From the NCBI GenBank assembly GCA_025617745.1, contig CM046863.1, positions 9,412,935-9,476,934 on the forward strand: a DNA stretch of 64,000 bases. Reading direction: 5' to 3'. Within the stretch, counting starts at the first letter, position 1. Every line of letters starts with the position of its first letter. This DNA is from Heliocidaris erythrogramma. Taxonomy: Eukaryota; Echinodermata; Echinoidea; Camarodonta; Echinometridae. The notes below the pieces were generated by a model. The model was given only the letters and a program-made list of their open reading frames with translations, was not told the DNA's origin and made no database searches. Positions 5,545 through 64,000 of this stretch are shown one piece after another. The position numbers and the translations under genes are program-made.

Positions 5545-6492
5545 GACTCGCTCCCTAGATATGAGAAAACAATGCGCACAGCCCATTGTCCCAGGGAACG
5601 GTCGTTCCCTAGCCTCCCAGGCCAGTGCAGCGGGGGGAGCTGGGCGGCCTAGTTCCCCCTAGTACTAGCGGCAAGTTCAGCAAGATCAATCTGCATGCGA
5701 CATCGAGTTCAGTGCATACCACTGAACTACTCTTACCACTGAATTCAGTGCAGTGACATGTACAGCGTTAAAAACAGCGCTGCGACCGCTGACTCAGCTC
5801 AGCACAATGTACCACATGTGTACCAGAGTTGTGAGAGCAGCTAAAATTAGAACTGCATAATACGTGCGCGCGCGTGCACATATATTTCTTGGCGATATAC
5901 AGTACACCATTTGAGTTTTAAAACAAGCTTTGGTTCCAGTGTGATTCTTTTATGACTTGAATGTAAATTGTGTCTTTTCTAAATAATTCAGATCAAATTT
6001 TCTAGCTTTGATCTTGATGCAAGAAATACACCTTAGCATTTACGAAATCAAACCAAAACATAAGATTATTTTAGTCAATTAAAACAGTCAATTAATACAC
6101 TACTTTAATAATATTAGCTTCTTAAACCCTCCAAATTCGCTCTGACCATGAACCTTTTAGTTTTAGCTCTCGACACCCTCCAAAATGGGATTTCCCAACT
6201 AATTTTTAGCTCTTCAGACCCTCAAATTTAGCTCTGCCCATAAGCCCTTTCACTCCCTAGACCCTCAAAAATGAGCTTCCTCAATTAATCATTTAGCTCC
6301 TTAGCCCCCTGTTTTGAGATTGGCAGAGGCACACCCACATGCTAAAAAAAGGTTGAGTGCCCCCCCCCCCTCCCCCCCCCCCGAGACTGAGACCCTCTCT
6401 ATTTTAGCAATGTGGAATAATAATTTTACTGATATGTTTAGATTGTTTATATTTGATTTATTACACATAACATAGAACAAGTTGTTGTATAT

Positions 6493-6935
6493 TTAAAGAC
6501 CTCAGCCTGACCCAAAACAACCATATATTGACGTAAAGCTTAGTAAACAAAGAATATCATTTCCCTGGTTATTCATAAATTTTCGTCTCCGTTTATCCAT
6601 AAAAAATAAAAAAGATAATTTTTTTGGTCCGCCCCCTCCCTATGGCGTAACACTGCAGGGGGTCGCTAGACGTGTGACGACATGTCATGTATACAGCTCC
6701 GAGTGCGTCTACACGATATGTCGTCATCAAATTTCCCCCCCCCCCCCCCCCCCGCAAAGTAGCGTTCCTCAGAGACGGGGCCCAAACCACCGGGTCTCAA
6801 CATTCGGGACGCTGTTACTCATTCCACAGGAAACGGAATCTCATGAAGTTGGTTTCAATTTGTTCAGAAAATATATAGCTCCCCATGGATGAATAAAGGG
6901 TATATTTCAAAATTCGGTCAGGCTGAGGTCTTTAA
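6493..6935. mobile_element. MITE-like element with TTAA flanks
   Basis: AGACCTCAGCCTGACC at 6,497-6,512 is repeated in perfect inverse at 6,916-6,931. Both ends are bounded by TTAA. The interior has no coding capacity and holds a poly-C run at about 6,736-6,753. TTAA target duplication is the habit of piggyBac-type transposases, so this could be a non-autonomous passenger of such a family; that is inference. The element is absent from copy B of the duplication, so it is a later insertion (or was lost there). Confidence 0.7.
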
Positions 6936-7019
6936 GTATAGTTATGTGATTTTCATACACACGTTGTATATATTGTAAATATGCCCGGTGAAGCCACTCC
7001 CCCGCAGAGGGCGACGCGT

Positions 7020-8508
7020 ATGACCGTTACCAAAAATTCAAATAACCCCCTTTCGCGGTCAATTTCAAGGACATTTTGTGAAATTTAACCCTCTTTTTTT
7101 ACGTCAAAACAAGGACAAAATGGTATTTTGAAATACGCCTATTTTTAAGATTGTACACTTTCGGAAACTTTCCCCTATTTTACCATATTTCAAGGACAAG
7201 ACATCTATACCCTTTTTTCATTAACATATAGGTGTCCAAGACCCGATTCCTCAAATTACAAGCTCACACACAATTAATATAAGGAAAATGCATTTTTTAA
7301 TGTGTTATTCATTTAAAAATATTTCGGCAATAGCTCATATAAACTCCTGGGGAAAAAACCACTCTATCATCATGTTTATTTGAAATAACCACTTTGTCTG
7401 ACCACTAACAAATAGGCAAGGTTAAATAACCTCATACCGACTTATACATGTACAAGCTTATCTGAAGATAACCTTGTACTCCAGACTAGCTTTTATGGGT
7501 GAATAGGCTTCAACAGCTTTTGTGTGTATCAACGTGCCTATTTCCAGTCTACATCATTCATACACTATGTTGCAGCAGTCACAAACAGACAACAAAATTT
7601 CTCTAAGCAAGATTTTACTTTCTTTAATTTGCTATATTACCTGATTCATCATGGACTCTTCAACTAGTCTTGCTGTGCCACAAATTTGGGGATTCAGAAT
7701 TGAAAATAAAATACTTAAATAATTATTTTCCTCTCATGACTCATGATGTATCAATTGTCTAGACTGGAAAAAGGCCCGCTGATAGTACACACAAAAGCTA
7801 TTTAAGCCTATTCACCTATAAAAGCTAGTCTGGAGTACAAGGTTATCTTTAGATAAGCTTGTACATACTACAAGCAGCAATGGCCTATGAGTGCCTCATA
7901 GCCATACGCCCATGAACTAACATGAAAGCATATGAATGGGACTGTTGTTGCTGTTAGTGTTACTTGAACTATTCATACCTGTGAAAGTCCTTTCACACGA
8001 CTTTCACGAATATCACGATTCGTGCAGTTGACTGCAGAGCAAGACGGCATCTTCCCACTTCATCTTTGAAGGGCATATGATGATTATATGAGTGAATTGT
8101 TTTAAGGGAAACAAGATTGCGCTGGCGAGCTGCCAGTGGCGTCATGTTGCCTATGGCTAATCAGCGTGCAGCGAGCGATCGAGCCCAATAGTGGGAAAAA
8201 CCACAGAGATACATACTATATTATGTATCTCTATGGGAAAAACTTACCTTCACGTCCGCCATCTTGCTGAGTGACGGCAGTTCGGGGATTTTTTTTTCTC
8301 AACGATGAACGCGCCCTCCCCGGCAGGCCCGCAGCTAGCGACTCTGCTCCGGGATTTTTCTTCATGGGTTTTCTTCCCTTTTCCTGACCCCTATTTTATC
8401 AAGTTCGAGGACACCTGCGCACCCCTATTTTCTATATTTTGAGGAATATTCTGTCCGCGGACGTTCCTTGAAATTCACCCCTATATCCGCGATTTTGGTA
8501 ACGGTCAT
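7020..8508. mobile_element. Inverted-repeat element enclosing a second fold-back element
   Basis: ATGACCGTTACCAAAA at 7,020-7,035 is mirrored at 8,493-8,508. Weaker inverted similarity extends about 50 bp inward (AATTTCAAGGA on the left, its complement on the right). No transposase frame is seen. The whole segment is missing from the corresponding place in copy B (about 48,080-48,185). It contains the separate inverted-repeat unit at 7,449-7,865, so it appears nested. A small hairpin (AGAGATACATA with its complement) lies at about 8,206-8,233. Confidence 0.55.
7449..7865. mobile_element. Fold-back MITE with ~105-bp inverted arms
   Basis: The left arm 7,449-~7,550 starts TGTACAAGCTTATCTGAAG. 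It is repeated inverted at ~7,762-7,865 with only scattered differences, leaving a loop of about 210 bp. No coding frame is seen. It lies inside the larger inverted-repeat segment 7,020-8,508. The length and structure are those of a non-autonomous DNA element; the superfamily is not assignable. Confidence 0.7.
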
Positions 8509-9668
8509 GCAGTCCCCAAGTCACATTGGTTCGAGACTGAGTCACGTCTTTCGGATGGTGACATTAAAGGTCGGTCCCCAGACGTAAATATTCATATATG
8601 ATTGATACACGTCTGTAAAAACCCAATTACACACACACACAATTAATCAATAATAAAGGAACTTCATATTTCCTTTACATTACTTAGTTCATTGAGGAAT
8701 TTTGGTTAGTGAGATAGGTTAGATGTTGAGTAGGAATGAGTGCGTGATAGAATTTACGTTTCTACTAATGCACATGTATTCATCTGTAGGCCGATAGGTG
8801 GGGAATAGATGTGAAATGATAGTTTTACATCTTGTTTAATATCTTCTTCCGCTGCGCTACTAGTCTGTTAATACCGATCCTCCCCACCCGAAAAATGCTT
8901 TTATATCATTAGATAAAAAAATCAAATCTGCAACAGAAGGTTCAAGATGAATGAGTTTCATTGATACTTCGCCTATTCATGGCAAGCCAGTCTACTGTAA
9001 AGCCCCTTTTGTTAAATTAGCTGAGTCACAAGAGATACTGAATTTAGTTTACTACCGTTACGGTACAAGCACATAATATATGTTTTGCAGAAACAGCATA
9101 CTCGCATCACGTAAGGACAGACAGAACATGTAGCCAGAATCGGATGTAATAACACTAACGACCAAGCTATGAGGCCGCACAATATCACTGAATCGGCAAC
9201 AAATGAAATACACTACAGTTATGTCGTCGAGTGCAACGCTACATAAATTCGACACCTATCTCTTTGACGACATAGGCAACGTTCTTTTAGAATAACCGTT
9301 GCATTACGTGCCTACGAAGATTTGACTACTTTGAGGAAGTGATTAATATGTGACATACATGTATTGCATATGTTAATGGATGCATGGAAAACTTGATTGT
9401 TTCAAAAGGAAACCCTACTGTAAGCGTTAATAATTCAAATTGGGAAGAAGTGATTAACTTTCAGTGCAAAAAAATCATCACGCATCGAAGGTGTCACATT
9501 GCAGTACCATCAAAAGTTGGTATAGACGACTGGATATCACAGGTTATATCCTTAGATGCCAGAATAAGAAAACAATGATCTGATTTAGTAAGATAAATAT
9601 TCAGTTGACAAAATCAAGGTAAATGACATTGCCTATCTGACTGCTAGTAATCCATAGTAATTCTAACC
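8509..9668. other. 5' flank / probable promoter and leader of gene A
   Basis: This stretch is conserved with 48,185-49,507 upstream of gene B and should hold the promoter and 5' leader. I cannot point to a convincing TATA box or start site. A 64-codon frame at 9,384-9,578 is not preserved in copy B and is probably not coding. Just before the start codon, copy A has about 40 bp (9,626-9,665) that copy B lacks. Copy B has about 170 bp at 49,296-49,468 that copy A lacks. Confidence 0.5.
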
Positions 9669-12600
9669 ATGGATATTCGTCATTTCGACGTGGCTCGTTT
9701 TTTGTTTAGAACAGAAACCGGATTTGAAAAGAGTAACAATGACAGTTGGACGCCTCTTCAAAATGCATCACATCATGGAGATCTTAACACAGTTCAATAT
9801 CTCATCAGCAGAGGAGCAGATCTGGAGAAGAGTGATGATGATGGCTGGACACCTCTCCACTTTGCTTCAAATAATGGACAGATTGATGTTGTTAAGTTTC
9901 TCATTAGTAAAGGAGCAGATCTTGAGAAGAAAGATGAAAATGGGAGCACCGCTCTTCAGATGGCATCATTTCAAGGTCATCTTGAAATAGTTCAATATCT
10001 CGTCATCAAAGGAGGAGATTTTGAGAAGGTTGATAGTTCTGGCAGGACAGCTCTCCAATATGCATCGTATAATGGTCATCTCGATGTAGTAGATTTTCTT
10101 GTGGGTAAAGGAGCAGATTTAGAGAAGATTGATAAGGACGGTTGCACATCTCTTCACAATGCATCCTTTAATGGTCATCTTGACATTGTACAGTATATCA
10201 TCAGTAAAGGAGGAGACCTTGATAAGGGTGACAAGACTGGTAGCACACCTCTTCAAAAGGCATCATTTAAAGGTCATCTTGATGTAGTATATTTTCTCGA
10301 GAGTAAAGGAGCAGATCTGAAGCAGGTTGATAGTACGGGCATGACACCTCTGCATAAAGCATCAATAAATGGCCATCTTGATGTTGCACAGTATATCGTC
10401 AGCAAAGGAGGAGACCTTGAGAAGGTTGATAGTTCTGGCAGGACACCTCTCCAATATGCATCGTATAATGGTCATCTCGATGTAGTAGATTTTCTTGTGG
10501 GTAAAGGAGCAGATTTAGAGAAGATGGATAAGGACGGTTGCACATCTCTTCACAATGCATCTTTTAATGGTCATCTTTGCATTGTACAGTATATCATCAG
10601 TAAAGGAGGAGACCTTGATAAGGGTGACAAGACTGGTAGCACACCTCTTCAAAAGGCATCGTATAATGGTCATCTCGATGTAGTAGATTTCCTTGTGAGT
10701 AAAGGAGCAGATTTAGAGAAGATTGATAAGGATGGTAGCACACCTCTTCACAAGACATCACTTAAGGGTCATCTTGATGTAGTAGCTTTTCTCGTGAGTA
10801 AAGGATCAGATCCGGAGAAGGTTGATAATGACGGTAACACATCTCTTAACAATGCATCCTTTAATGGTCATCTTGACATTGTACATTATATCATCAGTAA
10901 AGGAGGAGACCTTGATAAGGGTGACGAGACTGGTAGCACACCTCTTCACAAGGCAGCATTTAAGGGTCATCTTGATGTAGTAGATTTTCTCGTGACTAAA
11001 GGAGCAGATCTTGAGAAGGTTGATAGTACGGGCATGACACCTCTCCAATATGCATCGTATAATGGTCATCTCGATGTAGTAGATTTTCTTGTGGGTAAAG
11101 GAGCAGATTTAGAGAAGATGGATAAGGACGGTTGCACATCTCTTCACAATGCATCCTTTAATGGTCATCTTGACATTGTACAGTATATCATCAGTAAAGG
11201 AGGAGACCTTGATAAGGGTGACAAGACTGGTAGCACACCTCTTCAAAAGGCATCGCATAATGGTCATCTTGACATTGTACAGTATATCATCAGCAAAGGA
11301 GGAGACCTTGATAAGAGTGACAAGACTGGTAGCACACCTCTCCAAAAGGCATCGTATAATGGTCATCTCGATGTAGTAGAATTTCTTGTGAGTAAAGGAG
11401 CAGATTTGGAGAAGATTGATAAGGACGGTAGCACACCTCTTCACAAGGCATCACTTAAGGGTCATCTTGATGTAGTAGCTTTTCTCGTGAGTAAAGGATC
11501 AGATCTGGAGAAAGTTGATAATGTCGGTAACACATCTCTTAACAATGCATCCATTAATGGTCATCTTGACATTGTACAGTATATCATCAGTAAAGGAGGA
11601 GACCTTGATAAGGGTGACGAGACTGGTAGCACACCTCTTCACAAGGCATCATTTAAGGGTCATCTTGATGTAGTAGATTTTCTCGTGACTAAAGGAGCAG
11701 ATTTAGAGAAGGTTGATAGTACGGGCACGACACCTCTCCAATATGCTTCGCATAATGGTCATTTCGATGTAGTAGATTTTCTTGTGAGTAAAGGAGCAGA
11801 TTTAGAGAAGGTTGATCAGGATGGTTGGACATCTCTTCATAGTGCATCCTTTAATGGTCATCTTGACATTGTACAGTATATCGTCAGTAAAGGAGGAGAC
11901 CTTGATAAGGGTGACAGGACAGGTAGCACACCTCTTCAAAAGGCATCGTATAATGGTCATCTTGACGTTGTACAATATATCGCCAGTAAAGGAGGAGACT
12001 TTCATAAGGGTGACAAGACTGGTTGCACACCTCTTCACGGGGCATCATTTAAGGGTCATTTTGACATAGTACAGTATATCATCAGCAAAGGAGGAAACCT
12101 TGATAAGGGTGACAATACTGGTAGCACACCTCTTCAAAAGGCTTCGTATAATGGTCATCTTGATGTAGTAGATTTTCTTGTGAGTAAAGGAGCAGATTTA
12201 GAGAAGATTGATAAGGACGGTTGCACATCTCTTCACAAGGCCTCATTTAATGGTCATCTTGATGTAGTAACTTTTCTCGTGAGTAAAGGAGCAGAACTGG
12301 AGAAAGTTGATAATGACGGTAGCACATCTCTTAACGATGCATCGTATAATGGTCATCTTGACGTTGTAAAGTATATCGTCAGTAAAGGAGGAGACCTTCA
12401 TAAGGGTGACAAAACTGGTTGCACACCTCTTCACAATGCATCCTTCAATGGTCATCTTGAAATAGTTCAATATCTCGTAAGCAAAGGAGTAGATCTTGAG
12501 AAGGTTGATAGTACTGGCAGGACACCTCTGCATAAGGCATCAATAAATGGTCATCTTGACATTATACAGTATATCGGCAGTAAAGGAGGAGACCTTAACA

Positions 12601-12702
12601 AGTGTGACAAGACTGCTAGCACTCCTCTTTCCCTGGCTTCAGAAAATGGACATTTTGAAGTGGTTCAGTACCTCCGTAGTAAACAAGCGCTGTGTGATAA
12701 TG
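9669..12702 (+). CDS. Gene A exon 1: 30 ankyrin repeats in one exon
   Basis: This 3,034-nt exon encodes a 24-residue leader (MDIRHFDVARFL...) and then 30 uninterrupted 33-residue ankyrin repeats with the consensus G-x-TPLH-x-AS-x-NGHLD-x-V. The repeats are unusually uniform. They switch between a type ending DFLVSKGADLEK and a type ending QYIISKGGDLDKGDK, often alternating, so adjacent surfaces differ in a regular way. Repeats 8-13 and 14-20 are near copies of each other, a higher-order block of six to seven repeats. The exon ends GATAATG|GTAAGC in phase 1; without splicing the frame would stop at 12,717-12,719. Ankyrin repeats bind protein partners; no partner can be named. Confidence 0.92.
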
Positions 12703-12949
12703 GTAAGCCCAATAGTTAGTATGTTCCAACTTATTACTTTGCCCTTTTTCCCCATACTTGTTGGTGAGGTGGAGGTTGTGGTCTAGTTTATAAGTTTCCG
12801 GGGAGTGAACAACAAGATACGGGGTTCAAATCTATAAGACGTTTACACGAAACGATTGCTCCATTTGGTACAACTAGATATACTGGGCCTTTTTATGTGA
12901 AAGAAAATCAAAGCAAGCTGTGCAGCTATGTTACGACAGTGATTGCCTT

Positions 12950-13159
12950 TGAATGTCATGTATTGTCTTAAGCTTCTCTTTCCGATTTATCCCCCACCCT
13001 CTCTATTTTTCTGTCTCTTTCCCTTTCTCAATCTCCTTTTTTCTCTCTTTTCATATATACACGCTTCTGTTATTATTCTTTCTTTTCTCTATCTCTCTCT
13101 TTCTCTCAATTTAACCCTCTACTCAACTTTTCGTTCACTTTCTTTCTCTTTTCTAACCT

Positions 13160-13193
<34 letters not shown>

Positions 13194-13445
13194 CTTTTCC
13201 TCTTTCCCTTGATGACACAGAAATTTAAAATCTTTTAATTTAGAATGCAATAATTGAGAATTCTATTTAGTTTTATTATGTATGATTTATACACCTACAT
13301 CATATAAGTTTAATGATTGGATCTTCGAGTGATTGTAGGAATGAGTTTTATATGTATGGCTCTGTAAATAGAGCAATTTTAGCTATCAAGCTCCATGTTC
13401 TTTTTTTATTGCAATAAAACGATACAATTTAATTCGATTCAATTC
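12950..13445 (+). repeat. LINE 3' end in intron 1 of gene A
   Basis: A CT-rich stretch leads to TTGCAATAAAACGATAC and a tail of ATTCGATTCA type, like the 3' ends of the LINEs elsewhere in this window. The same piece lies in intron 1 of gene B (53,470-53,935) and at 25,270-25,725. It therefore inserted before these copies separated. Confidence 0.55.
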
Positions 13446-13828
13446 GATATTAAACATTTAAAATAGAAATAGTTTATTACTGAAGTCTATTAATTATATC
13501 TGGCACATAGTATATGCTACACATCAATAATGTACAGAACATTCCAGTCCAGCTTGATTTTATAATTTTGTTATGATTTTGAAGGTTCCATAACCTAACA
13601 TTACATAACGCAACTGTTCCAGTCAGTAGCTCAATATTCAAATGAATCTTCTATAGTATTCATTATTATAGCCTCTCCCTTGAAGACAGATTTGTAGTTG
13701 ATTTGAAAGATTCCAACCATGAGATTAATTTACATGTCTGTAGTTAAACAATGATGGTTTGAGCCGAAGAAAATGTGATATATTATACACCCGAACAAGA
13801 AAATCAGTCTTCACTTGTTTCTTTCTAG

Positions 13829-14301
13829 ATCAAGTCGGTGGTTCCAGAAACGAAAGTAGAAGTGCCGACGAACAGGTGGATTACGAGCACACCTCACAAC
13901 CCGAAGATGTAGAGGAACATCTACTACAGCAAGACGTGGACTCCGCACCTGCTCCTGAAGAGGTCGTAGAACAAAGTTCCGTTGATAATCGTGATTCCAT
14001 AGACAAATGCAGTGAAGAGTCGGGCGTGATTCGCCTTGAGATCACATTGAGCATCACATTGAGGTCCAGGTTCCTCCAAGTGAGCCTTGGAGGGTTAAAG
14101 ACATCACAGTGAGAGTTAACACTGAAGTTCCACCGGAATTGTTGGACCTGCTACAAGAGAACGAAGCAATCATCAGTGTTGGCCTTGAGATGTCACCATC
14201 TGATGCAAAGTTCAGCACACCACTCAAAGTGACAATGCCTCACTCCGCCATTTTTACGAGACTCGATACTGCATCAATTGGGACGTACTATCGGGAAAGC
14301 A
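13829..14301 (+). CDS. Gene A exon 2: acidic linker and ZU5-like domain (frameshifted)
   Basis: The acceptor TTTCTTTCTAG precedes DQVGGSRNESRS; the donor is AAAGCA|GTAAGA. The first ~65 residues are acidic and Ser/Glu-rich (linker). The rest matches the second half of a ZU5 domain, with LLDLLQENEAIISVGLEMSP leading to PLKVTMPHSA, the usual 'LTMPH' signature. Compared with gene B exon 2 (465 nt), this exon is 473 nt because ATCACATTGAGC stands in place of AAGC just before ATCACATTGAGG at about 14,040-14,064. The frame is lost there, and the ZU5 part is only readable in another frame. Confidence 0.85.
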
Positions 14302-14874
14302 GTAAGAATATCATGAAGATGATAATATCGCTAATTTTTATGTCACTTGTACGGAGCCCGGGAAGTGGCATGGCGATTTATTTTTAATCTCGTTCTCTTG
14401 ACTTACTATCTTGACTTATTATGTTGACCATTGATCTCGAGATATTACGTTGATGTTTCAAGGCAATATCTCTAGGGAACGAGAGAAAATAATTACCATA
14501 TCACTTCCCGGGCTCCGTATACATGTAAAGTGGGCAGTGACATCTCAATAAATCTATTACAGCAAATATTTATTATACACTATCGTATTTTTTTCTTATT
14601 AAAAAAAAAATGTGTCACAGAATCCAACTTTCAGTGAACAAAACCTGCCCCCCCCCCCCCCCCCTTAAACGTGGAACGACTTACAACCGAGGGTTGATTT
14701 ATTGTTACTGGAAATCGGTGTTTAAAGCTTGGGTACTCAACGTGAACAATGTGTCTTCTCCCCTGTCGTTTCTACGTTCCCTTGTGTATATTTTCCCAAA
14801 TATTATATTTTGTTTTGTGTCTTCAACATCAGAATAAGCTGCAATGCATGATATCTTATATTTTCTATTTAAAG

Positions 14875-15113
14875 GCTCCGACAGCTTTTCGTTGATTACT
14901 TTTGCCCGTGGTGACCCTCGATGTGTTGTAAGAGAGCGAGACCTTGATCTCTACATCGATCACTTCTCTGAATGGTGGATTATTGCCTTCATTACAAGAA
15001 CATTCTTCGGCAAACGTGTCATCTGTACACCCCATGTTCCCGTATCAACCCCAAGGAATACTGAACACCTGTTACATCTCTGCATAAGGGACGATAACCT
15101 TGGGAAAGCAGAG
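14875..15113 (+). CDS. Gene A exon 3: UPA-like region, first part
   Basis: The 239-nt exon runs from the acceptor TATTTAAAG|GCTCC to the donor GCAGAG|GTATGA. Its phase of 1 in and 0 out fits exons 2 and 4. The product includes DLYIDHFSEWWIIAFITRTF, like the 'VDHFS-x-YAL' strand that ends ZU5 and begins UPA in PIDD/UNC5/ankyrin proteins. This is followed by a hydrophilic stretch with HLLHLCIRDDNLGKAE. It is nearly identical to gene B exon 3. Assignment to UPA rests on position and weak motif similarity. Confidence 0.8.
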
Positions 15114-15608
15114 GTATGAAAGGGAAGAGGGAATCATCGCTCAACACAGTTTGTTTAAAAACGTCACCAAACACTTTCAACAATTCTGATTTATATATTC
15201 GACGTCGTTCAATATATGAATTGTCTTATTTTTGTAAAACAATGGCAAGATTTTGAGATAAGAAAATAAATTATCAGAATTTAAGACATTGATATCGGTG
15301 CAAATATTTAACATATTAGATTATGGAATGTAAGTTTCAAAAACACATTTTAGCAAGAGTGGTTTCATAGTTAGGAAGGAACCGCGGCAAATATACAGGC
15401 CTATGTGTAAGAGGTAACTTCTCAAGTTGCCTTCTTAATAAGAAATAATCCTCCATTCCCGTCTAGCCCCATCATTTTCTTATTTCAATGAACACTTTGT
15501 ATGTTTTAAATAGGCACATACATTTGCTTGACATAAACGTCTAATTTCAAGATAGCATGAGCTAGCTATAGGTCTGCTCAAAACTTTCTTCTTGTCTAAA
15601 AAAATCAG

Positions 15609-15719
15609 CCTAAATCTGGATACATGGCACCAATTGAGGGACAACAGTTTTTCATTGCATGGCGTTCTGGAGATCTTGAAGTCACTTGTATTGCAGACAA
15701 CAAGAACATAGGCACCAGG
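15609..15719 (+). CDS. Gene A exon 4: UPA-like region, middle part
   Basis: A 111-nt exon (37 codons, phase 0-0) lies between the acceptor AAAAAAATCAG|CC and the donor ACCAGG|GTAAGT. The encoded PKSGYMAPIEGQQFFIAWRS has the beta-strand character expected in a UPA fold. It is identical in gene B as far as I read. It has no independent function on its own. Confidence 0.8.
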
Positions 15720-15850
15720 GTAAGTTGATAAGTGAAAAATTGTGGTAGATTTTTATACACTTTTTTCGCGCTTATTCTCTTAGGTCCGTATTATGATAAT
15801 GCACTTAAACCCGACGCCGGTTCAGAGATCACGTTTGACAAAAGGAAGAC

Positions 15851-22856: not shown

Positions 22857-22876
22857 TTGTATATATCTAATATATA

Positions 22877-22916
<40 letters not shown>

Positions 22917-22917: not shown

Positions 22918-22920
22918 AAG

Positions 22921-48028: not shown

Positions 48029-48029
48029 A

Positions 48030-53240: not shown

Positions 53241-53469
53241 GTAAGCCAATAGTTAGTATGTTCCAACTTATTACTTGCCTTTTTTTCCATACTTGTTGGT
53301 GAGATAGAGGTTGTGGTCTAGTTTATAAGTTTCCGGACTGTGAGCAACAAGATACGGGGTTCAAATCTATATAACGTTTACACGAAACTTTTGCTCCATT
53401 TGGTACAACTAGATATACTGGGCCTTTTTATGTGAAAGAAAATCAAAGCAAGCTGTGCAGCAATGTTAC

Positions 53470-53935
53470 GACAGTGATTGCCTTTGAATGTCATGTATTG
53501 TCTTAACCTTCTCTTTCCGATTTATTCCCCATCCTCTCTATTTTTCTCTCTCTTCATATATACACGCTTCTGTTCTTATTCTTTGTTTTTTCTCTCTCTC
53601 TCTTTCTCTCACTTTAACCCTCTCCTCAACTTTTCGTTCACTTTCTTTCTCTTTTCTAACCTTCTCTCTCTTTCTCTCTCTCCTTTTCCTCTTTCCCTTG
53701 ATGACATAGAAGTTTAAAATCTTTTAATTTAGATTGCACTTATTGAGAATTCTATTTAGTTTTATTATGTATGATTTATATACCTACATCATATGAGTTT
53801 AACGATTGAATCTTCGAGTGATTGTAGGAATGTGTTTTATATGTATGGCTCTGTAAATAGAACAATTTTAGCTATCAAGCTCCATGTTTTTTTTTATTGC
53901 AATAAAACGATACAATTTAATTCGAATCAATTCGA
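53470..53935 (+). repeat. LINE 3' end in intron 1 of gene B
   Basis: Counterpart of 12,950-13,445, with a shorter CT tract. The tail reads CAATAAAACGATACAATT and then ATTCGAATCAATTCGAT. Confidence 0.5.
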
Positions 53936-54317
53936 TATTAAACATTTAAAAATAGAAATAGTTTATTACTGAAGTCTATAAATTATATCTGGCATATAGT
54001 ATATGCTACACATCAATAATGTACAGAACATTCCAGTCCAGCTTGATTTTATAATTTTGTTATGATTTTGAAGGTTCCATAACCTAACATTACATAACGC
54101 AACTGTTCCAGTCAGTAGCTCAATATTCAAATGAATCTTCTATAGTATTCATTATTATAGCCTCTCCCTTGAAGACAGATTTGTAGTTGATTTGAAAGAT
54201 TCCAACCATGAGATTAATTTACATGTCTGTAGTTAAACATTGATGGTTTGAGCCGAAGAAAATGTGATATATTATACACCCGAACAAGAAAATCAGTCTT
54301 CACTTGTTTCTTTCTAG

Positions 54318-54782
54318 ATCAAGTCGGTGGTTCCAGAAACGAAAGTAGAAGTGCCGACGAACAGGTGGATTACGAGCACACCTCACAACCCGAAGATGTA
54401 GAGGAACATCTACTACAGCAAGATGTGGACTCCGCACCTGCTCTTGAAGAGGTCGTAGAACAAAGTTCCGTTGATAATCGTGATTCCATAGACAAATGCA
54501 GTGAAGAGTCGGGCGTGATTCGCCTTGAGAAGCATCACATTGAGGTCCAGGTTCCTCCAAGTGAGCCTTGGAGGGTTAAAGACATCACAGTGAGAGTTAA
54601 CACTGAAGTTCCACCGGAATTGTTGGACCTGCTACAAGAGAACGAAGCAATCATCAGTGTTGGCCTTGAGATGTCACCATCTGATGCAAAATTCAGCACA
54701 CCACTCAAAGTGACAATGCCTCACTCCGCCATTTTTACGAGACTCGATACTGCATCAATTGGGACGTACTATCGGGAAAGCA
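54318..54782 (+). CDS. Gene B exon 2: acidic linker and intact ZU5-like domain
   Basis: This 465-nt exon is open throughout. The linker (EDVEEHLLQQDVDSAPALEE) is acidic. The ZU5-like part runs from LEKHHIEVQVPPSEPWRVKD through VRVNTEVPPELL, ISVGLEMSPSD and PLKVTMPHSAIF. The donor is AAAGCA|GTAAGA. It is the reference for gene A's +8-bp defect. Confidence 0.87.
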
Positions 54783-55358
54783 GTAAGAATATCATGAAGA
54801 TGATAATATCGCTAATTTTTATGTCACTTGTACGGAGCCCGGGAAGTGGCATGGCGATTTATTTTTAATCTCGTTCTCTTGACTTACTATCTTGACTTAT
54901 TATGTTGACCATTGATCTCGAGATATTACGTTGATGTTTCAAGGTAATATCTCTAGGGAACGAGAGAAAATAATTACCATATCACTTCCCGGGCTCCGTA
55001 TACAAGTAAAGTGGGCAGTGACATCTCAATAAATTTAGGCTTTCTATTACAGCAAATATTTATTATACACTATCGTATTTTTTTCTTATTAAAAAAAAAA
55101 TGTGTCACAGAATCCAACTTTCAGTGAACAAAACCTGCCCCCCCCCCCTTAAACGTGGAACGACTTACAACCGAGGGTTGATTTATTGTTACTGGAAATC
55201 GGTGTTTAAAGCTTGGGTACTCAACGTGAACAATGTGTCTTCTCCCCTGTCGTTTCTACGTTCCCTTGTGTATATTTTCCCAAATATTATATTTTGTTTT
55301 GTGTCTTCAACATCAGAATAAGCTGCAATGCATGATATCTTTTATTTTCTATTTAAAG

Positions 55359-55597
55359 GCTCCGACAGCTTTTCGTTGATTACTTTTGCCCGTGGTGACC
55401 CTCGATGTGTTGTAAGAGAGCGAGACCTTGATCTCTACATCGATCACTTCTCTGAATGGTGGATTATTGCCTTCATTACAAGAACATTCTTCGGCAAACG
55501 TGTCATCTGTACACCCCATGTTCCCGTATCAACCCCAAGGAATACTGAACACCTGTTACATCTCTGCATAAGGGACGATAACCTTGGGAAAGCAGAG
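55359..55597 (+). CDS. Gene B exon 3: UPA-like region, first part
   Basis: 239 nt, same boundaries and phase as gene A exon 3; I saw no coding change. It contains DLYIDHFSEWWIIAF. Confidence 0.8.
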
Positions 55598-56092
55598 GTA
55601 TGAAAGGGAAGAGGGAATCATCGCTCAACACAGTTTGTTTAAAAACGTCACCAAACACTTTCAACAATTCTGATTTATATATTCGACGTCGTTCAATATA
55701 TGAATTGTCTTATTTTTGTAAAACAATGGCAAGATTTTGAGATAAGAAAATAAATTATCAGAATTTAAGACATTGATATCGGTGCAAATATTTAACATAT
55801 TAGATTATGGAATGTAAGTTTCAAAAACACATTTTAGCAAGAGTGGTTTCATAGTTAGGAAGGAACAGCGGCAAATATACAGGCCTACGTGTAAGAGGTA
55901 ACTTCTCAAGTTGCCTTCTTAATAAGAAATAATCCTCCATTCCCGTCTAGCCCCATCATTTTCTTATTTCAATGAACACTTTGTATGTTTTAAATAGGCA
56001 CATACATTTGCTTGACATAAACGTCTAATTTCATTATAGCATGAGCTAGCTATAGGTCTGCTCAAAACTTTCTTCTTGTCTAAAAAAATCAG

Positions 56093-56203
56093 CCTAAATC
56101 TGGATACATGGCACCAATTGAGGGACAACAGTTTTTCATTGCATGGCGTTCTGGAGATCTTGAAGTCACTTGTATTGCAGACAACAAGAACATAGGCACC
56201 AGG
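56093..56203 (+). CDS. Gene B exon 4: UPA-like region, middle part
   Basis: 111 nt, phase 0-0, unchanged from gene A exon 4 (GYMAPIEGQQFFIAWRSGDL). Confidence 0.8.
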
Positions 56204-56334
56204 GTAAGTTGATAAGTGAAAAATTGTGGTAGATTTTTATACACTTTTTTCGCGCTTATTCTCTTAGGTCCGTATTATGATAATGCACTTAAACCCGACG
56301 CCGGTTCAGAGATCACGTTTGACAAAAGGAAGAC

Positions 56335-56878
56335 TTAAAGGGGAAGTCCACCTTGGTATTTCTTTGGTTTGAATAAAAGCAGCAAAACTTAGAGAAACAG
56401 ATTAGTGAAAGTTTGAGCAAAATCTGACAATAAATAAACTTGTGAATTTATGAAGTTGTAATCAATCAAACACAAATCGGCAACTCCGTGACGTATTTTG
56501 CGAGCTCCTCCCACATTTGCTTCGTGCAGAAAATTTTCATGAATTCTCATTTTCTTAGCTGTTGATGTCTTGATGAAAAATAGGTTTGTTTCATACAGGT
56601 TCTGTTTAACAATATATGTGCACTGATTATATCTATGGTGCATGTTTGATGAAATAATTTAGAGAAATTGGAAATTTATGATTGTTGTAGTATACAGGGC
56701 AAATGGGAGAGGACGATACATCATGGAGTTGCAAATTTGTGTTTCATTGATTACAACTTCAGATTTTTTTTTTTTTTTTTTGTTATCGGATTTTGATCAA
56801 ACTTTTATTCATTGGTTTCTTTAAGTTGTTTGCTTCTTTTAGATTCAACTTGATATCAGGGTGGATTTGCCACTTTAA
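56335..56878. mobile_element. TTAA-flanked MITE in intron 4 of gene B
   Basis: Counterpart of 15,851-16,388 at the same site, with an eroded right end (GGTGGATTTGCCACTTTAA). It contains 8 bp more near 56,429 (CAATAAAT). Confidence 0.7.
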
Positions 56879-57145
56879 CCCTCTAATTTTCTTCATCGAA
56901 CTCGATTTTAAACAAAAGCTTTTTTAAATGCAGGGTCGGCTTTACATCTTAATAGAATACGGGCCTTCTAGTTTTCCTCACTGTACCATATAGTAAAAGA
57001 GACTGGGTAACCTTAGCCGAGAATCACCTTTAAATCGGCCACTACATGTACGTTTTTGTAAGTATAAGGATGTCACACTAATGTTGTATAAATATAGACA
57101 GACATAAAGATTTTCCTTCAGTTCGGTCCAACATGACTGTGTTTG

Positions 57146-57480
57146 TCAGTTTAGTTCAGTTTATTTCCACATTCAAATCAGATAACAATAGTAGGAACAA
57201 CTAAAACTAATTAAATACAAACAGAAAATGCTTCAGAAAAAGCAACACAAATCAAAATGTGAAAGGTGGGGTACTAACAAAGTCCAATCGACACATCAAA
57301 GATCAATCCGCAAAACATTGAAATATGATAAGTATTAAAGAGCTTCAGTACACCTATCCATCTATCTGGTACAATGCTACATCGGAATTTAATCAGCATA
57401 CATGGCATATGGTTCGCTAAAGGTTTTGTTTTGTTTTTGTTTTTGTTGTACTATCAGTAGATATTTCATTTATATCTTCA
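57146..57480 (-). repeat. LINE 3' remnant, reverse strand, intron 4 of gene B
   Basis: Same remnant as 16,655-17,000, with small indels. Confidence 0.35.
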
Positions 57481-57674
57481 TAAATTCCCCTGAATATTGT
57501 GAAATGATGGAAGCGGTCTTTGTCCTATGGGCTCCTAATATCAAAGTGGAGGGAGGTCTATAATAGACGCACTTTGCACCATTAAGCGTGCAGAGGGTAA
57601 AGTACTGGCAGCAAAGATAAATTTCAGACGTCGTATCTATCTTACTTGAAGTTACCCTGTGTCTTTCTTTACAG

Positions 57675-57825
57675 AAGCGACAGGAAAGTTTGTTTCATAA
57701 CTTGACTGAGACAAAAGTATCATTCGTTGTGAACACTACAGCCACTAACAAACCCAAAGTCTTCATCCAGTTCAATTTGGAACAAAGCGCGACGATAGAA
57801 ATCATTTGTCCAATGCATTTGTCAG
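57675..57825 (+). CDS. Gene B exon 5: UPA-like region, last part
   Basis: 151 nt from CTTTACAG|AAGCGACAGG to TTGTCAG|GTAACG. It differs from gene A by AGA to AGC (Arg/Ser) plus a few silent bases. Confidence 0.8.
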
Positions 57826-58352
57826 GTAACGAATGGTATATCTAAAGCGTGTCTTTGTCATGCCAGTCTTCACAGCTTTATGCGAAATTATTCTACGAGG
57901 CGTTACATCGAATAATGAGGTTATAAACGGTTACACACTCTAAAGAATTAGGTAAAATATTGCGTAGGATTTAACTTACTTCAGAGAGCATTGATAATTA
58001 TCACAATTCAGTGTATATTTCTAAAAGATTTTTCAATTCTGACAAACGCCATAAGACAGTGGGAGTAGTAGAATAAGAGCAGGAAGAGGTAGCAGTACAA
58101 AAAGTAATTGTAGTTGTAGTTGCAGACGTAGTAGCAGAAGAATGATACTTTCTTTGGTGATTACCACATGGCTGCTTTGCCTAATGGTCTTCAACTTTGT
58201 CGAGAACAATACATAAGTATGAAATAGTAAAATTGTAAAATCATAATAATTTGTTAAATTCAACACACACTAAGCAATTTGTGTCCGATCCGAGCATCTA
58301 CGTCATAATAACCAAAGGGATATTGTTCATATTGTTCTTGTTGGTCAGTCAT

Positions 58353-58493
58353 GGAGCCCTTGGGGAGCGTTTCATCAAGTGTCTTGGTGATGTTTACCAC
58401 ATTTGCTCTCAGCCAATCAGATGCAAGGATTTCAGTAGCTTATAACAGTTATTGCAACTTGTCATTGATGACAAGTTTTATAAAACAGGGCCC
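58353..58493. mobile_element. Degenerate short inverted-repeat element, intron 5 of gene B
   Basis: Counterpart of 17,862-18,005, three bases shorter; the inner hairpin is kept. Confidence 0.35.
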
Positions 58494-58578
58494 TGGTCAA
58501 ATCGGATTCGTGTGGTTGTTTGGTCTAAAGACTTAATGATTGGTTCGGTTATATTGTTAACATAATCACTCGTATATA

Positions 58579-60213
58579 CACTGTTGGTCATAAAGGTGGA
58601 ATAAAATATTTGTGAATAAAAATCGACAGTTTTGTTGGTATTTGAAAGGCTACGCGTAGACAAAATGGTAATTGAGTGATTACATATTGTTTCCCCATTA
58701 CACAGGTGACATTATAACATGAGAAATTTGGATTACGTAATAAATTCTTTTGTTGTAGACTATAAAAGCCCATGCATATGACATTATGTCGCTTTCCCTG
58801 ATTTAGCACTGTGTATAAGAAGGTTGCATTTTTTCGAGTTCCTTGTACCGTTTGAAATAAAAATCGGTAGAGACGTTCCCTGGACTATGCCTGGTCCAAC
58901 GGCAACAGCAACGCGAGAGAGTGGTAGCACTGCGACAGGAGGGCTACAAGCAGACTGATATCGCAGAAGTCCTAGGGATATCACAGAGTGCAGTCTCTAA
59001 GATCCTGAAACGTCAACGTGAGGCGGGGAATGTGCGGCCACGGAAATCTCCAGGACGTCCCAGATTGACCACAAGAAGAGATGATCGCCAACTGTTGAAT
59101 TTCAGCCGCAGAAACCGGAAATTGCCCACGAGCCGTCTTCGTCGCTTGTGGAGGAGATATCATGGGATCAACGTTTCCCGGTCAACCGTTAATCGCAGAT
59201 TGCTCCAACATGGTTACCGAGCACGACGGTTGACCAAATGTCCACGCCTGTCTGTTCGCCACAGAGTAGCTCGTCTTCTTTGGGCTAGGGAGCACATCCA
59301 GGACATTGACAACATGTGGTCTTCACGGACGAGAGCTGGTTCATCCTTGACCGAAAGGATGGGAGACAACGAGTTCGTCGATTAGCCGGGGGAAAACCTT
59401 CGCGGTGAATGTATCCACGAGACGACTCAAGGCGGAGGCCGGCATCCATTATGGAGGGAAAACGCCACTGGTGGTTCCGGACGGAAACGTCAACGCCGCC
59501 GCCTACAGGGATATCTTGGAGTTCCACTGTCTTCCATATGCAGACGAGTGTATGGGCACAATTTCCGACTGCAGGATGACAACGCTAGACCGCACAGGGC
59601 CGCTGCAGTAAGGGAATTCCTGGAGGCAGAGGGCGTCGTACAGTTGCCATGGCCAGCTTGTTCGCCGGATATGAACCCCATAGAGCATGCATGGGATTCC
59701 CTAGGCCGAGCCATCAACGACAGAGAGGTCATTCCTCAAAATCTGCAGGAGTTGGCAGATGCTCTGAGGGAAGAATGGGACGCTATGCCTGTTGACGTCA
59801 TCAACAAGCTAGTGGACAGCATGCCACGACGTCTACATGCGCTGGTTCGTGCCAGGGGTGGACATACCCGATACTAGTGACTGAGTAAGAAAAATGACTC
59901 AAGTTTGATGCAAATTTGTCCATGAAATCACAAGAAAGAAGTCATCTGGAAAACTGAGAGAGATTGAAAATAAATACTGTATCTCATGATCATTTAATTT
60001 ACTGTATATTGTCGTCATTGTTGTTCTATGCTCATGACATCCAACGCTTAGGACATAAACTTGTAAAATATCACTGTCAAACGTGTGTAAAAGGCAGAAT
60101 AATAAAGTAAAGTGGTTATCATGCACCATAAATGCCATATTCAAATCATGTTGTAATAATTACGCTGTGAAAATTTGGTGAAAAAAAATATTCCACCTTT
60201 ATGACCAACAGTG
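58579..60213. mobile_element. Tc1-type DNA transposon in intron 5 of gene B
   Basis: 1,635 bp with 25-bp perfect inverted ends beginning CACTGTTGGTCATAAAGG and a TA duplication on both sides (58,577-58,578 and 60,214-60,215). The matching place in gene A reads CGTATATAGGTTCG with no element, a clean empty site. The insertion is therefore younger than the segmental duplication. It encodes a broken DD34E transposase on the plus strand. Confidence 0.95.
58887..59877 (+). pseudogene. Tc1-family transposase, several frameshifts
   Basis: It starts at ATG 58,887. The N-terminal paired-type DNA-binding region (YKQTDIAEVLGISQSAVSKI and the basic GRPRLTTRRDD) is in frame from 58,921, two bases out of phase with the ATG. 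The catalytic triad is recognisable across frames: FTDESW near 59,316-59,333, DDNARPHRAA at about 59,575, and SPDMNPIEHAW at about 59,667, with 34 residues between the second Asp and Glu. Frame changes near 58,915, 59,313, 59,395 and 59,520 make it inactive as read. Confidence 0.88.
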
Positions 60214-60295
60214 TAGGTTCGTAAAAAGCATATTTCAATTTTTTATTTCCATTTCAATATTAATTAGTTTAGTTTTCGTCTTTCCGTTTTATCAG

Positions 60296-60400
60296 ACCCC
60301 ATGGAAGTAATTCATCAGCCTTCTCTAGAGAGTTCTGTAAGACCACAGCCATCCCAAGAAGGAATCCCTCTAGAGACTATTTGCAGAATCGATTCCCAAG
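60296..60400 (+). CDS. Gene B exon 6: Ser-rich linker
   Basis: 105 nt, phase 1-1: DPMEVIHQPSLESSVRPQPS and following. It differs from gene A at two residues (Ile/Met and Ser/Pro). The donor is CCCAAG|GTAAGC, slightly stronger than in gene A. Confidence 0.8.
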
Positions 60401-61126
60401 GTAAGCACTCCCTCTTGGCAAGCTGCTATGACCACGCGCACTGTTCTTTAATTCAGCGTGAAAATGACTTTCCATTTTCGCATGAAACAAATTCATATTC
60501 CCAAGTTACTTCAAAGAGCACAGAGAAAGATATCTTTTATTCCAAAACTAATCGTCGTTAATATATTTCTAAAATATCTTTCATTGCAGAGTTTCAGACA
60601 AAAGCCATTCGTTGAAAATAGGAGTAGGCCTAGTGGAATAAGAACAGGAAGATTTAGCACATAGTAAGGATAGTTTTACTAGTAGCAGCAGAAGAAGTAA
60701 TAGTATATTTTATGTGATGATTTCCACTTTTCTGATCCAAACTAATGGTCTAAAATTTTGCACAGAACAATAGAGAGGAGAAGCATGAACGGAAATGTTT
60801 TGGCATGATGAAGTGAAATCATAACAATTTGTACTGTTTTTAACACAGACAAAACAAATTGTGTCCGATCCGAGCATCCACGTCATAATGATTAATTGAA
60901 TAATTGTCATCTTGGCAAACCTGTTGCATGGTCAGTAAAAGTCTTTTGATTAAGGCCCTGGTCAAATAGGGGATTTGTGTGGTTGTTCGGACTACCATCC
61001 TGATATGATTGGTTTGGCTATTTTTTTAACATGATATCTCCGTGAAATTGAGTATAATTTAATTTCTTATTTCCATGTTGATATTAATTGGTTTTCGTTT
61101 TCTCTTTTTACTCCATTTCAAATCAG

Positions 61127-61234
61127 ACCCCATGGAGGTAAGTCATCAGTCTTTTCTTCAGAGTCCTGTAAGAACACGATCATCCCAGGAAGAAATCCCT
61201 CGTCTAGAGACTCTTGGCTCAATCGATTCCTCAG
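61127..61234 (+). CDS. Gene B exon 7: Ser-rich linker (sister exon)
   Basis: 108 nt, phase 1-1: DPMEVSHQSFLQSPVRTRSS and following. The internal GAG|GTAAGT at 61,135-61,143 is retained. It has more amino-acid changes against gene A than exons 3-5, which suggests weak constraint. Confidence 0.8.
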
Positions 61235-61568
61235 GTAACCCCCATTCCCGTTCTTAATATTAGTCATTAACCCATTAGATGAGATTACCTTTTTTGTATC
61301 TTATTAAGGCAACGCACACCATGCAACCGAACAACGACTAAATTTTGAAAAAATATTGCAATATAGAAAATGTGATTTCTTCTTGACTGAGGTCCCAAAT
61401 GTTAATAAGAGTAGTCATGTCGAAATTTCAAGCCCATATTATAGATATATATATATATATATATATGTCCAGTATACCTACATTCAAATCATGATGAACT
61501 ATAAATCGGATTATTCGTTAGCTTTACAAATGACATGGGTACAGCAGCACCGGTGCTCCAGATATAGA

Positions 61569-61843
61569 TATGCGTAAACAGAAGAAAAGTTTAGGAACTG
61601 TACTAGGACGTAGCTGGTATACATACACGTTTTAATCGAGCTTTCGGCTATTTAGGCCTTCTTCAGGATCTGAAGATAAGTCATAAAACAAAAACAAAAA
61701 CCAATACATCGTAGCGATCGTATATGACATACTATGTCATATATCATATATCGTATTACATCAATTAAGCGTGTATGTATCAATTAAACGTGTATGTATA
61801 CCAGTTACGTCCTAGTACAGTTCCTAGACTTTGCTTCTGTTTA

Positions 61844-61851
<8 letters not shown>
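61569..61851. mobile_element. Penelope-like inverted fragment in intron 7 of gene B
   Basis: Inverted ends of about 66 bp start ATGCGTAAACAGAAGAAAAG (mirrored at the right) and lead through GTCCTAGTACAG and GTGTATGTATA. On the minus strand the centre has CTGAAGA-AGGCC-TAAATA-GCC-GAAAGC, the same hammerhead-like core as in intron 7 of gene A. The surrounding sequence is different, so the two insertions are independent. A long TA run and poly-G follow (61,845-61,891). Confidence 0.5.
61642..61666 (-). ncRNA. Hammerhead-ribozyme-like core (minus strand)
   Basis: CTGAAGA, a GGC/GCC stem with the loop CTAAATA, then GAAA. Stems I and III are not resolved; it may be a decayed Penelope-element ribozyme. 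Confidence 0.35.
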
Positions 61852-61882
<31 letters not shown>

Positions 61883-62202
61883 GGGGGGGGGTGTGTGTGT
61901 ACGTGCCCTACGTAACCTTTTATGTATTATGTGTAAAAATGAATAATTCACCACTATAACACGCGCGTACACGAGTACCTTACATTAGATTACATTAGAG
62001 TGTGAGTGGGCGATTGAAGGTGCGTGGGTGCATGTTTGCAGATAAATGGGAGATGGGTGTGTTTAAAACGCAAACGAAATCTAGGATTCCAGGAAAGTGT
62101 AATGTATTCTTCACCCTTTCCTTTTTTATCATTTAGATCAAAATTTTTATGAAGTATAACGTAAAAGACAGTAATGTTTTGTTGGGTTTTTTTAAATTTC
62201 AG

Positions 62203-62245
62203 GACAACCAAGCTCAAAGACACCTCCAGGAGATGAAGCTAAAAA
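62203..62245 (+). CDS. Gene B exon 8: short hinge exon
   Basis: 43 nt encoding GQPSSKTPPGDEAK in the frame set by exon 7. One residue differs from gene A (Ala/Thr). The last exon, with the Death domain, lies outside the window. Confidence 0.7.
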
Positions 62246-62400
62246 GTAATTCAATATGTACCTTCCCATTTTTATTATTTGTGTATTATTATTTTTTCGG
62301 GGGAGAAGGGGGTTAGCTTAATGTTGTGTTGGTATGTTGTTTATGCACTACTTTCCTGATTCTCTCTTGTAACTATTCACCAGGAGGAATGCCGTTTTAT

Positions 62401-63664
62401 TTCTCGCTACCTCAAATATGCAATTTTCGACGTAGAGGGCAATATTATGCATGAAAATGGTCCGCATCTTCGTCAACTTCACTTCCGGTCCGTATTGAAA
62501 TACGGCTTATGAATAAAATGAGTGCTAAAATGCTTAATTTTTGGATCGCACGACATAAACCACTCAAATTTTGAAAATTCAACCAATTGTCTCAATAAAT
62601 TGGTTCGGTGTAAAAATGCCAGAGGTAAAAATGCCAGAGGAAAAAATGCCAGAGGTAAAAATGCCAGAGTAAAAAAATGCCAGAGGTAAAAAATGCTAGT
62701 ACCCCTCCCCCGACCCGGATATAGCATGCATGTATGTATTGTTTGCCACTAGCTTTCAGCTGACGACCCTTTTTTGTTAAACACTTCATATTATATTCTT
62801 TTTTTCACTTTTAATTCTGTTTGAATATATCTGCATCTGGTTTATAACTTAATGTGCATGAGCCCCCCCCCCCCCCCGTATTAATGTTGACGAGGCTGTA
62901 ATGCTCGATGTTTGTGTGACGACCTGTACATTTGTTGAAGAAGGGTGATGTCATTTTTGCATAGCTCCTTTCCCTTCTATAAACCTAAAATTCAGTTGCA
63001 GATTTCTTTCTCGTTCCAAATTTCATTCGGGATAATGAAATCGTACGTCGATTAAAAAGGCCGGTTCTACGATCTGGAGTCCACAGTCCAACAGTTCGAC
63101 AAGAAAAACGCGGTCAAACCAAATAGTCTAAAAGTAAAATACAAGCAGATGTCAGGTCTGCTTCTTGACCTTCTTTATGTTTCATCTCTTGATTTTTCAC
63201 CTCTATTTTCCTAGTATGCAGCTGGCATATTTTGCCTGTTTACTTTTTGTTCCTGACATCACCCATCGCGTGTTTATCTTTGTCATTTTACCTCTGGCAT
63301 TTTTTTCTCTGGCATTTTTACCTCTGGCATTTTTACCTCTGGCATTTTTTCCTCTGGCATTTTTACCTCTGGCATTTTTTCCTCTGGCATTTTTACCTCT
63401 GGCATTTTTCCTCTGGCATTTTTACCCCTGGCATTTATTCCTCTGGCATTTTTACCTCTGGCATTTTTACCTGGCACCTAATCATGATGGTATCTTTTCA
63501 AACATGTTAATTTATACTCAAACTCGAGTATTTTTGTAATACCTGTGTACATTTTCAATGCAAAAAGACAAACACCCAATCGGGATTTTGGCAGCACTGC
63601 GCATGCGTGGTTTGCATGACAAACGCCATCTGTTGGCACAATTGCGTATTTGGGGTAGCGAGAA
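62401..63664. mobile_element. Copy-B-specific TIR element with inverted minisatellite arms
   Basis: The ends TTCTCGCTACCTCAAATATG and CGTATTTGGGGTAGCGAGAA are inverted copies over about 25 bp. The element splits sequence that is continuous in gene A intron 8 (20,345-20,350). Inside, five units of AAAAATGCCAGAGGT lie at 62,609-62,697 and about twelve units of the complement ACCTCTGGCATTTTT at 63,285-63,475, so the minisatellites face each other across ~600 bp. Frames through them are artefacts. It is non-autonomous; the family is unknown to me and the target duplication is not clear. Confidence 0.8.
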
Positions 63665-64000
63665 TTCCGCCGTCAATCAATATGTAACTGTTATAATTAT
63701 CAACAAGGTCTGTGGTTTACGTCACTTAGTCGACAGTTGAAGAGAATGTTACATAAATATGACATTATTTTAGACTATATTTATAGAATCATATACCTAT
63801 ACTTCTAGGCAAGTTTTTACTAGATGTCGTGGCAGATATATGCTCAGAGGGAAATACAAAGGTGGTAGCAAGTTGTTTGGAAAGACAGACGAGGAATTTC
63901 AGAAACAAATGGAGAAAAAGATTTGAGAAAAATAAGAAAGAAAGTTAGTTATAAGATGTCTATTGCAAACTGGACAGTCAAGTTGGCGAATTGATACTTA
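63665..64000 (+). other. Intron 8 of gene B, continuing
   Basis: Matches gene A intron 8 (20,350-20,655). By that alignment, exon 9 should begin about 205 bp after base 64,000. Confidence 0.8.

Follow-up and report, generated by a model that had tools for sequence, protein, structure and literature searches.

The window analysed here is a stretch of 64,000 nucleotides from Heliocidaris erythrogramma (contig C11, 9412935-9476934; positions within it are prefixed w). It is a slice of a gene cluster at C11 8.99-9.60 Mb that is arranged as two head-to-head blocks, in a genome that was searched as 26 contigs (1.06 Gb). Two genes of the cluster, g1 and g2, lie in the window, each with an exon of ankyrin repeats followed by a ZU5 exon and further tail exons. 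Their parts are as follows.

w5545-9586, no strand assigned: 5' flank of g1, with four pieces common to w46372-49305 (87-95% identity)
w9669-21121, plus strand: g1, from exon 1 to the Death exon
w9669-12702, plus strand: g1 exon 1, open from its start codon through 30 ankyrin repeats, donor ATG/GTAAGC (phase 1)
w13829-14301, plus strand: g1 exon 2, an acidic linker followed by ZU5 (PF00791, 7.9e-6)
w14875-15113, plus strand: g1 exon 3, carrying the last part of ZU5 with DHFS (HFS encoded at w14961-14969) and after it the expected start of UPA
w17187-17337, plus strand: g1 exon 4, in a UPA-like position, no Pfam match
w18171-18275, plus strand: g1 linker exon 1, phase 1-1
w19001-19108, plus strand: g1 linker exon 2, which duplicates linker exon 1 (proteins about 63% identical)
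w20868-21121, plus strand: g1 Death exon, putative acceptor GTAG/AT, with a second conserved AG 8 bases upstream in another phase
w21245-21424, plus strand: degenerate Death-like piece with stops inside, likely a relic (35% identity, E 0.009)
w49508-53240, plus strand: g2 exon 1, start codon, 37 ankyrin repeats, TGA inside, 11-repeat internal duplication
w54318-54782, plus strand: g2 exon 2, open frame with a linker followed by ZU5 (5.6e-7)
w55359-55597, plus strand: g2 exon 3, DHFS (HFS codons w55445-55453)
w57675-57825, plus strand: g2 exon 4
w60296-60400, plus strand: g2 linker exon 1
w61127-61234, plus strand: g2 linker exon 2
w64312-64581, plus strand: g2 Death exon, just past the end of the window

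The splice sites of g1 and g2 are GT-AG, with phases compatible through linker exon 2. Each gene is broken by one lesion. In g1, exon 2 is thrown out of frame near w14040 by an 8-bp net insertion that is absent in the five other plus-strand copies, and in g2 an in-frame TGA at w51539-51541 lies within the ankyrin array. A stop replaces the same glycine (repeat part KGADLEK) in two cluster genes, g2 and L033 (near 2690). The next gene downstream of g2, named g3, is open through six exons (1600 codons). A preliminary description of this DNA had proposed two near-complete genes, both with lesions, and at least two relics. The two genes do belong to the same family and both carry lesions. The Death exon of g2 falls outside the window; the relics were reduced to one, the Death-like piece at w21245-21424. 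The segment at w25.4-26.0 kb is probably not an exon relic, since no exon matched there and it resembles intron 1. Roughly half of the segment coincides with a dispersed repeat (C3, C4, C5, C12, C15, C18 and C19, 67-73%); the remainder is found again close to Death homologs at C11:34.19 and 34.72 Mb. Several copies have an intron-1-like piece of this kind after the Death exon (w25442-26025, w65473-66068, C11:34.19 and 34.72 Mb).

The phase-1 acceptor AG of the Death exon is present in g1, in the gene at 9593794 and in five minus-strand copies, and is absent in six plus-strand copies. In the copies lacking it, use of the alternative conserved AG would require an extra exon before Death; seven candidates between linker exon 2 and Death were inspected and none was convincing. 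Homologs of exon 4 were sought at 14 other loci, again with no convincing result.

The family proved larger than the preliminary description had claimed. The N-terminal ankyrin exon matched 11 times in the cluster, five times on the minus strand and then six times on the plus strand, and in all 11 genes the ZU5 exon, exon 3 and the Death exon come after it in constant order on the gene's own strand. A DNA search with w12720-14830 returned six near-full plus-strand copies at 94-100% identity (query included) and six partial minus-strand copies at 79-81%, all within C11 8.99-9.51 Mb, plus weaker pieces. Of the 11 genes, 9 have an open frame in the ankyrin exon, which is broken in g2 and in the gene at 9266154. 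At least one further gene, with a different N-terminus (L041, C11:9561961), lies next to these genes, and related exon groups were found on C2, C9, C10, C12, C17 and other contigs. Exon 3 alone gave at least 129 matches genome-wide (203 candidates, 150 scored). In a related cluster at C12:22.59-22.60 Mb an open ankyrin frame reaches 3380 residues, and another, of 2349 residues, lies at C12:22.10 Mb.

The proposed link of the ankyrin exon to the ZU5 exon was borne out by an in-frame GT-AG junction and by two paralogs with both parts in one open reading frame. One of these, L040 on C13, carries ankyrin repeats and ZU5 in a single frame of 889 residues (ZU5 by Pfam, 1e-6), and the other, L039 on C15, in a single frame of 1120 residues (ZU5 by tblastn, 1.6e-21). 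Strand and collinearity were examined with 51 of 110 ZU5 matches (the best 52, the second piece of g1 being omitted), 52 of 129 exon-3 matches and 65 of 68 Death matches. Exon 3 followed within 5 kb on the same strand in 50 of the 51, and a same-strand Death match within 25 kb downstream in 33 of the 51; after flipping of the Death strands, none remained. Because of the two single frames and this collinearity with its strand-flip control, the ankyrin exon belongs to the tail exons as far as the DNA shows.

Profile searches upheld ZU5 in the tail, with PF00791 above the Pfam cut-off in g2 (5.6e-7) and g1 (7.9e-6); PF00791 also matched in 11 of 11 members of the set A1. A single ZU5 stretch, not two, was found in the joined tail of exons. 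In PDB the closest ZU5 matches are ankyrins, none of which reaches significance (best E values, 0.063 and 0.037). The UPA domain of the preliminary description was not recovered: PF17217 matched four exons genome-wide, none of them in the ankyrin-ZU5-Death family, and no match in the family was obtained either by Pfam or by profile comparison with PDB. The end of exon 3 aligns with ankyrin-2 near residues 332-371, without significance.

The Death claim stood in part. The window genes fall below the PF00531 cut-off of 22.6 bits, with 20.9 bits in g2 and 16.6 bits in g1 for the longer stretch (no match for the shorter), whereas a homolog at C12:21757697, downstream of ZU5 and exon 3, reaches 31.3 bits. 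A structural model of the exon gave no significant Foldseek match, the best being the Death domain of ankyrin-G. Its top Z rows were CENP-N, followed by ankyrin-B, FADD, 2of5_H (which we take to be PIDD), ankyrin-G and RIPK1. The C-terminal exon is thus likely a Death domain, weak by profile in the window genes and supported by the above-cut-off homolog and the modest model. Pfam gave no CARD at this exon, where Death alone matched, weakly, and no leucine-rich repeat (LRR) family was among the matches of exon 1.

Exon 3 carries the sequence YIDHFSEWWI, with DHFS at the end of ZU5, and its protein in g1 is identical in 5 of the 6 plus-strand copies. DHFS is present at 14 of 16 loci with an exon-3 match, the other two being weak (L005, which reads EHFS, and L008). 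Genome-wide, the pattern DHFS[D/E]WW occurs at 59 places (control, 0), every one within an exon-3 match; 58 of them are in the best 74 matches and one ranked lower. The codons of this pattern show synonymous variety. Among 40 more distant exon-3 homologs, HFS is kept in 17 and replaced by HCA in 11, with other letters in the rest. A sister group, L070-L082 (C6, C8, C9, C17 and C21), has HCA in 11 of 20, with the flanking WW and CTPY-type residues kept. The motif also lines up with an UNC5-like gene on C9, where HFS meets HFS (hhalign E 4.7e-6, 86%, one comparison) in an alignment that ends before UPA. This C9 gene matches the UNC5B structure 3g5b at 4.3e-20 over ZU5 and beyond, and its own UPA match lies about 18 codons past its HFS. 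The genes L002 and L003 (C9:18.37-18.39 Mb) form an inverted UNC5-like pair with ZU5, HFS and a hydrophobic stretch near the start; the first has a UPA match. According to PMC3210808, CARD8 and NLRP1 are cut at SF/S at the C-terminus of ZU5, and PIDD has HFS. By analogy, the exon 3 motif appears to be a conserved F/S site of the FIIND/PIDD type at the ZU5 end and is a predicted site of self-cleavage.

As previously described, the ankyrin repeats (33 residues each) are contiguous in one exon, 30 in g1 and 37 in g2, and PF12796 matched exon 1 of g1 at 1.5e-269. The ten single-exon arrays that were read hold 24, 30, 30, 30, 31, 36, 37, 37, 40 and 45 repeats; these counts do not include the gene at 9266154, whose array is broken. 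That repeat number differs between copies is seen in g2 and the gene at 9367843, where 30 of 30 repeats align at 97.8% and g2 has one additional block of seven. Near-identical internal duplications with lags of 11, 14 and 17 repeats are found in g2, g3 and the gene at 9222005. The supposed homogenisation of the repeat core needs to be qualified, as it is not confined to single genes: of 270 core repeats, 111 had their closest relative in their own gene.

The genes of the cluster are mosaics of one another, with a nearest neighbour that changes by region. Where exon 1 starts, the nearest relatives of g1 and g2 are gene 9307 (99.5%) and gene 9367 (99.8%), respectively. In exon 3, g1 equals g2, and their DNA is identical across a 431-bp stretch extending into the intron. 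At the start of the Death exon, g2 is nearest to g3 (99.0%) and g1 to genes 9266 and 9367 (92.6%). Such shifting neighbours favour exchange between genes and disfavour a simple duplication of haplotypes. With 11 genes, mosaicism by region and internal block duplications, the tandem array can be said to be turning over, as had been proposed.

The description of a fast-evolving recognition family was not sustained in the sense of positive selection. Ankyrin repeats generally vary at contact positions. The contact set comprised repeat positions 2, 3, 5, 13, 14 and 33, which we take to be those varied in designed ankyrin proteins. Residue variety is greatest at positions 5, 10, 2, 13, 33 and 3 (320 stop-free repeats, in a set drawn from 321 of 340 repeats that does not include some first repeats). 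In 163 nearest-neighbour repeat pairs, the ratio of nonsynonymous to synonymous rates (dN/dS) was 1.00 (0.72-1.52) at contact positions and 0.49 (0.39-0.61) elsewhere, which indicates a constrained scaffold with a likely contact face that is free to change. The dN of the contact set was reached by 2 of 20000 random six-position sets. The contact dN/dS was 1.30 in 776 close pairs and 1.00 in the 163 nearest-neighbour pairs, a ratio reached by 1352 of 20000 random sets. With a value close to 1 and the interval given above, positive selection on the arrays is unsupported. In the tail, dN/dS was 0.16-0.22 for exon 3, 0.26-0.45 for exon 2 (counted without L020), 0.36 for Death (g1-g2) and 0.13 for exon 4 (three copies, few changes). 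These values support purifying selection on the tail while the array varies; the variable array beside a conserved tail thus stands, but not adaptive change.

Parts of this layout are known from other proteins, and the domain plan itself is already known from ankyrins and from ZU5-UPA-Death proteins. The canonical ankyrins (ANK1/2/3) share the order of ankyrin repeats, ZU5 and Death (a likely Death domain in the present genes), and PMC5135030 gives them 24 repeats and a ZU5-ZU5-UPA unit. The present genes differ in that a single exon holds 24 to 45 repeats, the canonical 24 being matched exactly by 1 of the 10 arrays, and in having one ZU5, an HFS motif, no detected UPA and a tandem cluster. 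The preliminary description had called the gene unusual. Measured against PMC5135030, ankyrin repeats with ZU5, UPA and Death are the ordinary ankyrin plan; what is unusual is that the array occupies one exon, that the gene exists in so many copies, that ZU5 occurs once and that an HFS motif is present. What is new here is exon 3 with its conserved DHFS motif. In NLRP1 and CARD8, with their FIIND, a cleavage-type motif where ZU5 ends on its C-terminal side separates an N-part from a death-fold C-part (PMC3210808, PMC7483925). The present genes have an ankyrin array rather than NACHT-LRR, Death rather than CARD and HFS rather than SFS, and their cleavage is predicted from sequence. PIDD, according to PMC3210808, likewise combines a repeat array, ZU5 with HFS, and Death. 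It has LRR and UPA, in contrast to the ankyrin array found here, where UPA was undetected by profile. Expansions of Death-fold/TRADD-N proteins with ankyrin repeats in marine invertebrates are similar in being lineage-specific and in pairing a death fold with ankyrin repeats; they differ in that no TRADD-N match was obtained among the exons scanned here and in their reversed domain order.

The layout resembles the tripwire sensors of innate immunity. The reading we favour, with middling confidence and by analogy, is that the genes form a recombining cluster encoding cleavable ankyrin-ZU5-Death sensors of the NLRP1/PIDD kind, with the array as the changeable part. The gene anatomy, the cluster, its turnover and the conservation of the motif are observed; cleavage, trigger and immune role would follow the example of PIDD, NLRP1 and CARD8 as given in PMC7483925. 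Self-cleavage at HF/S, where ZU5 ends, would leave an ankyrin-ZU5 N-part and a Death C-part that remain associated. The trigger could be a foreign or misplaced protein that is bound by the ankyrin part or that cuts or degrades it. The C-part would then be released and its Death domain could assemble a signalling complex, comparable to UPA-CARD in NLRP1 and CARD8 or UPA-Death in PIDD. The array would act as a replaceable bait, for which unequal crossing-over may yield new lengths and surfaces while also shedding dead copies such as, possibly, g1 and g2. A more tentative extension is that the echinoderm family, with at least 59 intact DHFS[D/E]WW exons here, may constitute self-cleaving tripwires without NACHT or LRR whose bait comes from array crossing-over, the HCA group being possible uncleavable partners or brakes. 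A literature search returned no paper recognised as describing this family; most subscription papers were outside its coverage.

The genes could instead encode ankyrin-like scaffolds, with an array for binding cellular proteins, a structural ZU5 and a Death domain whose role is architectural or developmental, as in ordinary ankyrins; changes in copy and repeat number would then be by-products of tandem repeats. This would agree with the domain plan, equal to that of canonical ankyrins (PMC5135030), with the non-significant ankyrin matches of ZU5 and of the Death model, and with a contact-position dN/dS near 1 instead of above it. However, the single ZU5, the single-exon array, the HF/S site conserved across the exon-3 family, the spread of repeat numbers against a fixed 24 and the gathering of 11 near-alike genes in one cluster make it rather unlikely. 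Still less probable is signalling of the UNC5CL type, in which a self-cleaving ZU5-Death protein would activate NF-kB or IRAK and the ankyrin repeats would be regulatory, not recognition elements. UNC5CL and the UNC5 receptors share ZU5 homology with the family, and the family ZU5 with HFS matches by profile the ZU5-UPA gene on C9, whose HFS stands just before its UPA match. UNC5CL is a membrane protein without ankyrin repeats, and signalling of this type is ascribed to it; a literature search on UNC5CL cleavage returned no paper. Here an ankyrin array precedes ZU5, whereas the C9 gene has a different layout, given its long hydrophobic stretch near the start and the lack of ankyrin repeats in the frame read. 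Least probable is a partial assembly artefact, with two haplotypes of one region placed end to end. In its favour, exon 1 starts almost identically in the pairs 9307/g1 (99.5%) and 9367/g2 (99.8%), which recur in the same order. Against it, these pairs are 91.2 and 84.4% alike where the Death exon starts, nearest neighbours shift from region to region, and the diverged minus-strand block (79-81%) holds the same genes.

If HF/S is cut, as the cleavable-sensor reading predicts, sensors that join a repeat array to a death-fold tail able to be released would occur beyond the NLR family, in large gene clusters that are remade. HFS and HCA proteins, or arrays one seven-repeat block apart, would be natural pairs for studying the function and evolution of decoy sensors. 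If it is not cut, the cluster would still be a clean example of repeat-number turnover in ankyrin genes.

Mobile and repetitive DNA lies in and around the genes. From w-13862 to w5429 (C11:9399072-9418363) three units of about 6.46 kb lie head to tail, with a reverse-transcriptase frame at w3069-3806. The first two units are 99.8% alike, and the third is 99.9% alike over the first 2.4 kb and 96.5% over the remainder. Between exon 4 and linker exon 1 of g2, a Tc1-type transposase (w58861-59877) is divided into two frames by a stop; the match with g3 continues across the element at 97%, and g1 is without it. Reverse-transcriptase frames of the long interspersed nuclear element (LINE) type were found at w38261-40798, w23278-24189 and w27640-28296 (minus strand), the first being open over 845 residues with endonuclease and reverse transcriptase. 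Satellite-like arrays of 42/58 bp form an inverted pair (w34338-34658 and w36201-36517, 89% alike), and 15-bp minisatellite arrays in opposite orientation lie near the 3' end of g2 (w62610-62692 and w63286-63472).

Outside the cluster, contig C24 carries COX1, in which every one of the 13 aligned TGA codons reads as Trp; AAA lies opposite Asn in 3 of 4 cases and opposite Lys never, and AAG lies opposite Lys in 4 of 4. COX1 is followed by tRNA-Arg and then by frames read from the sequence as ND4L and COX2. This mitochondrial code and gene order fit an echinoderm.

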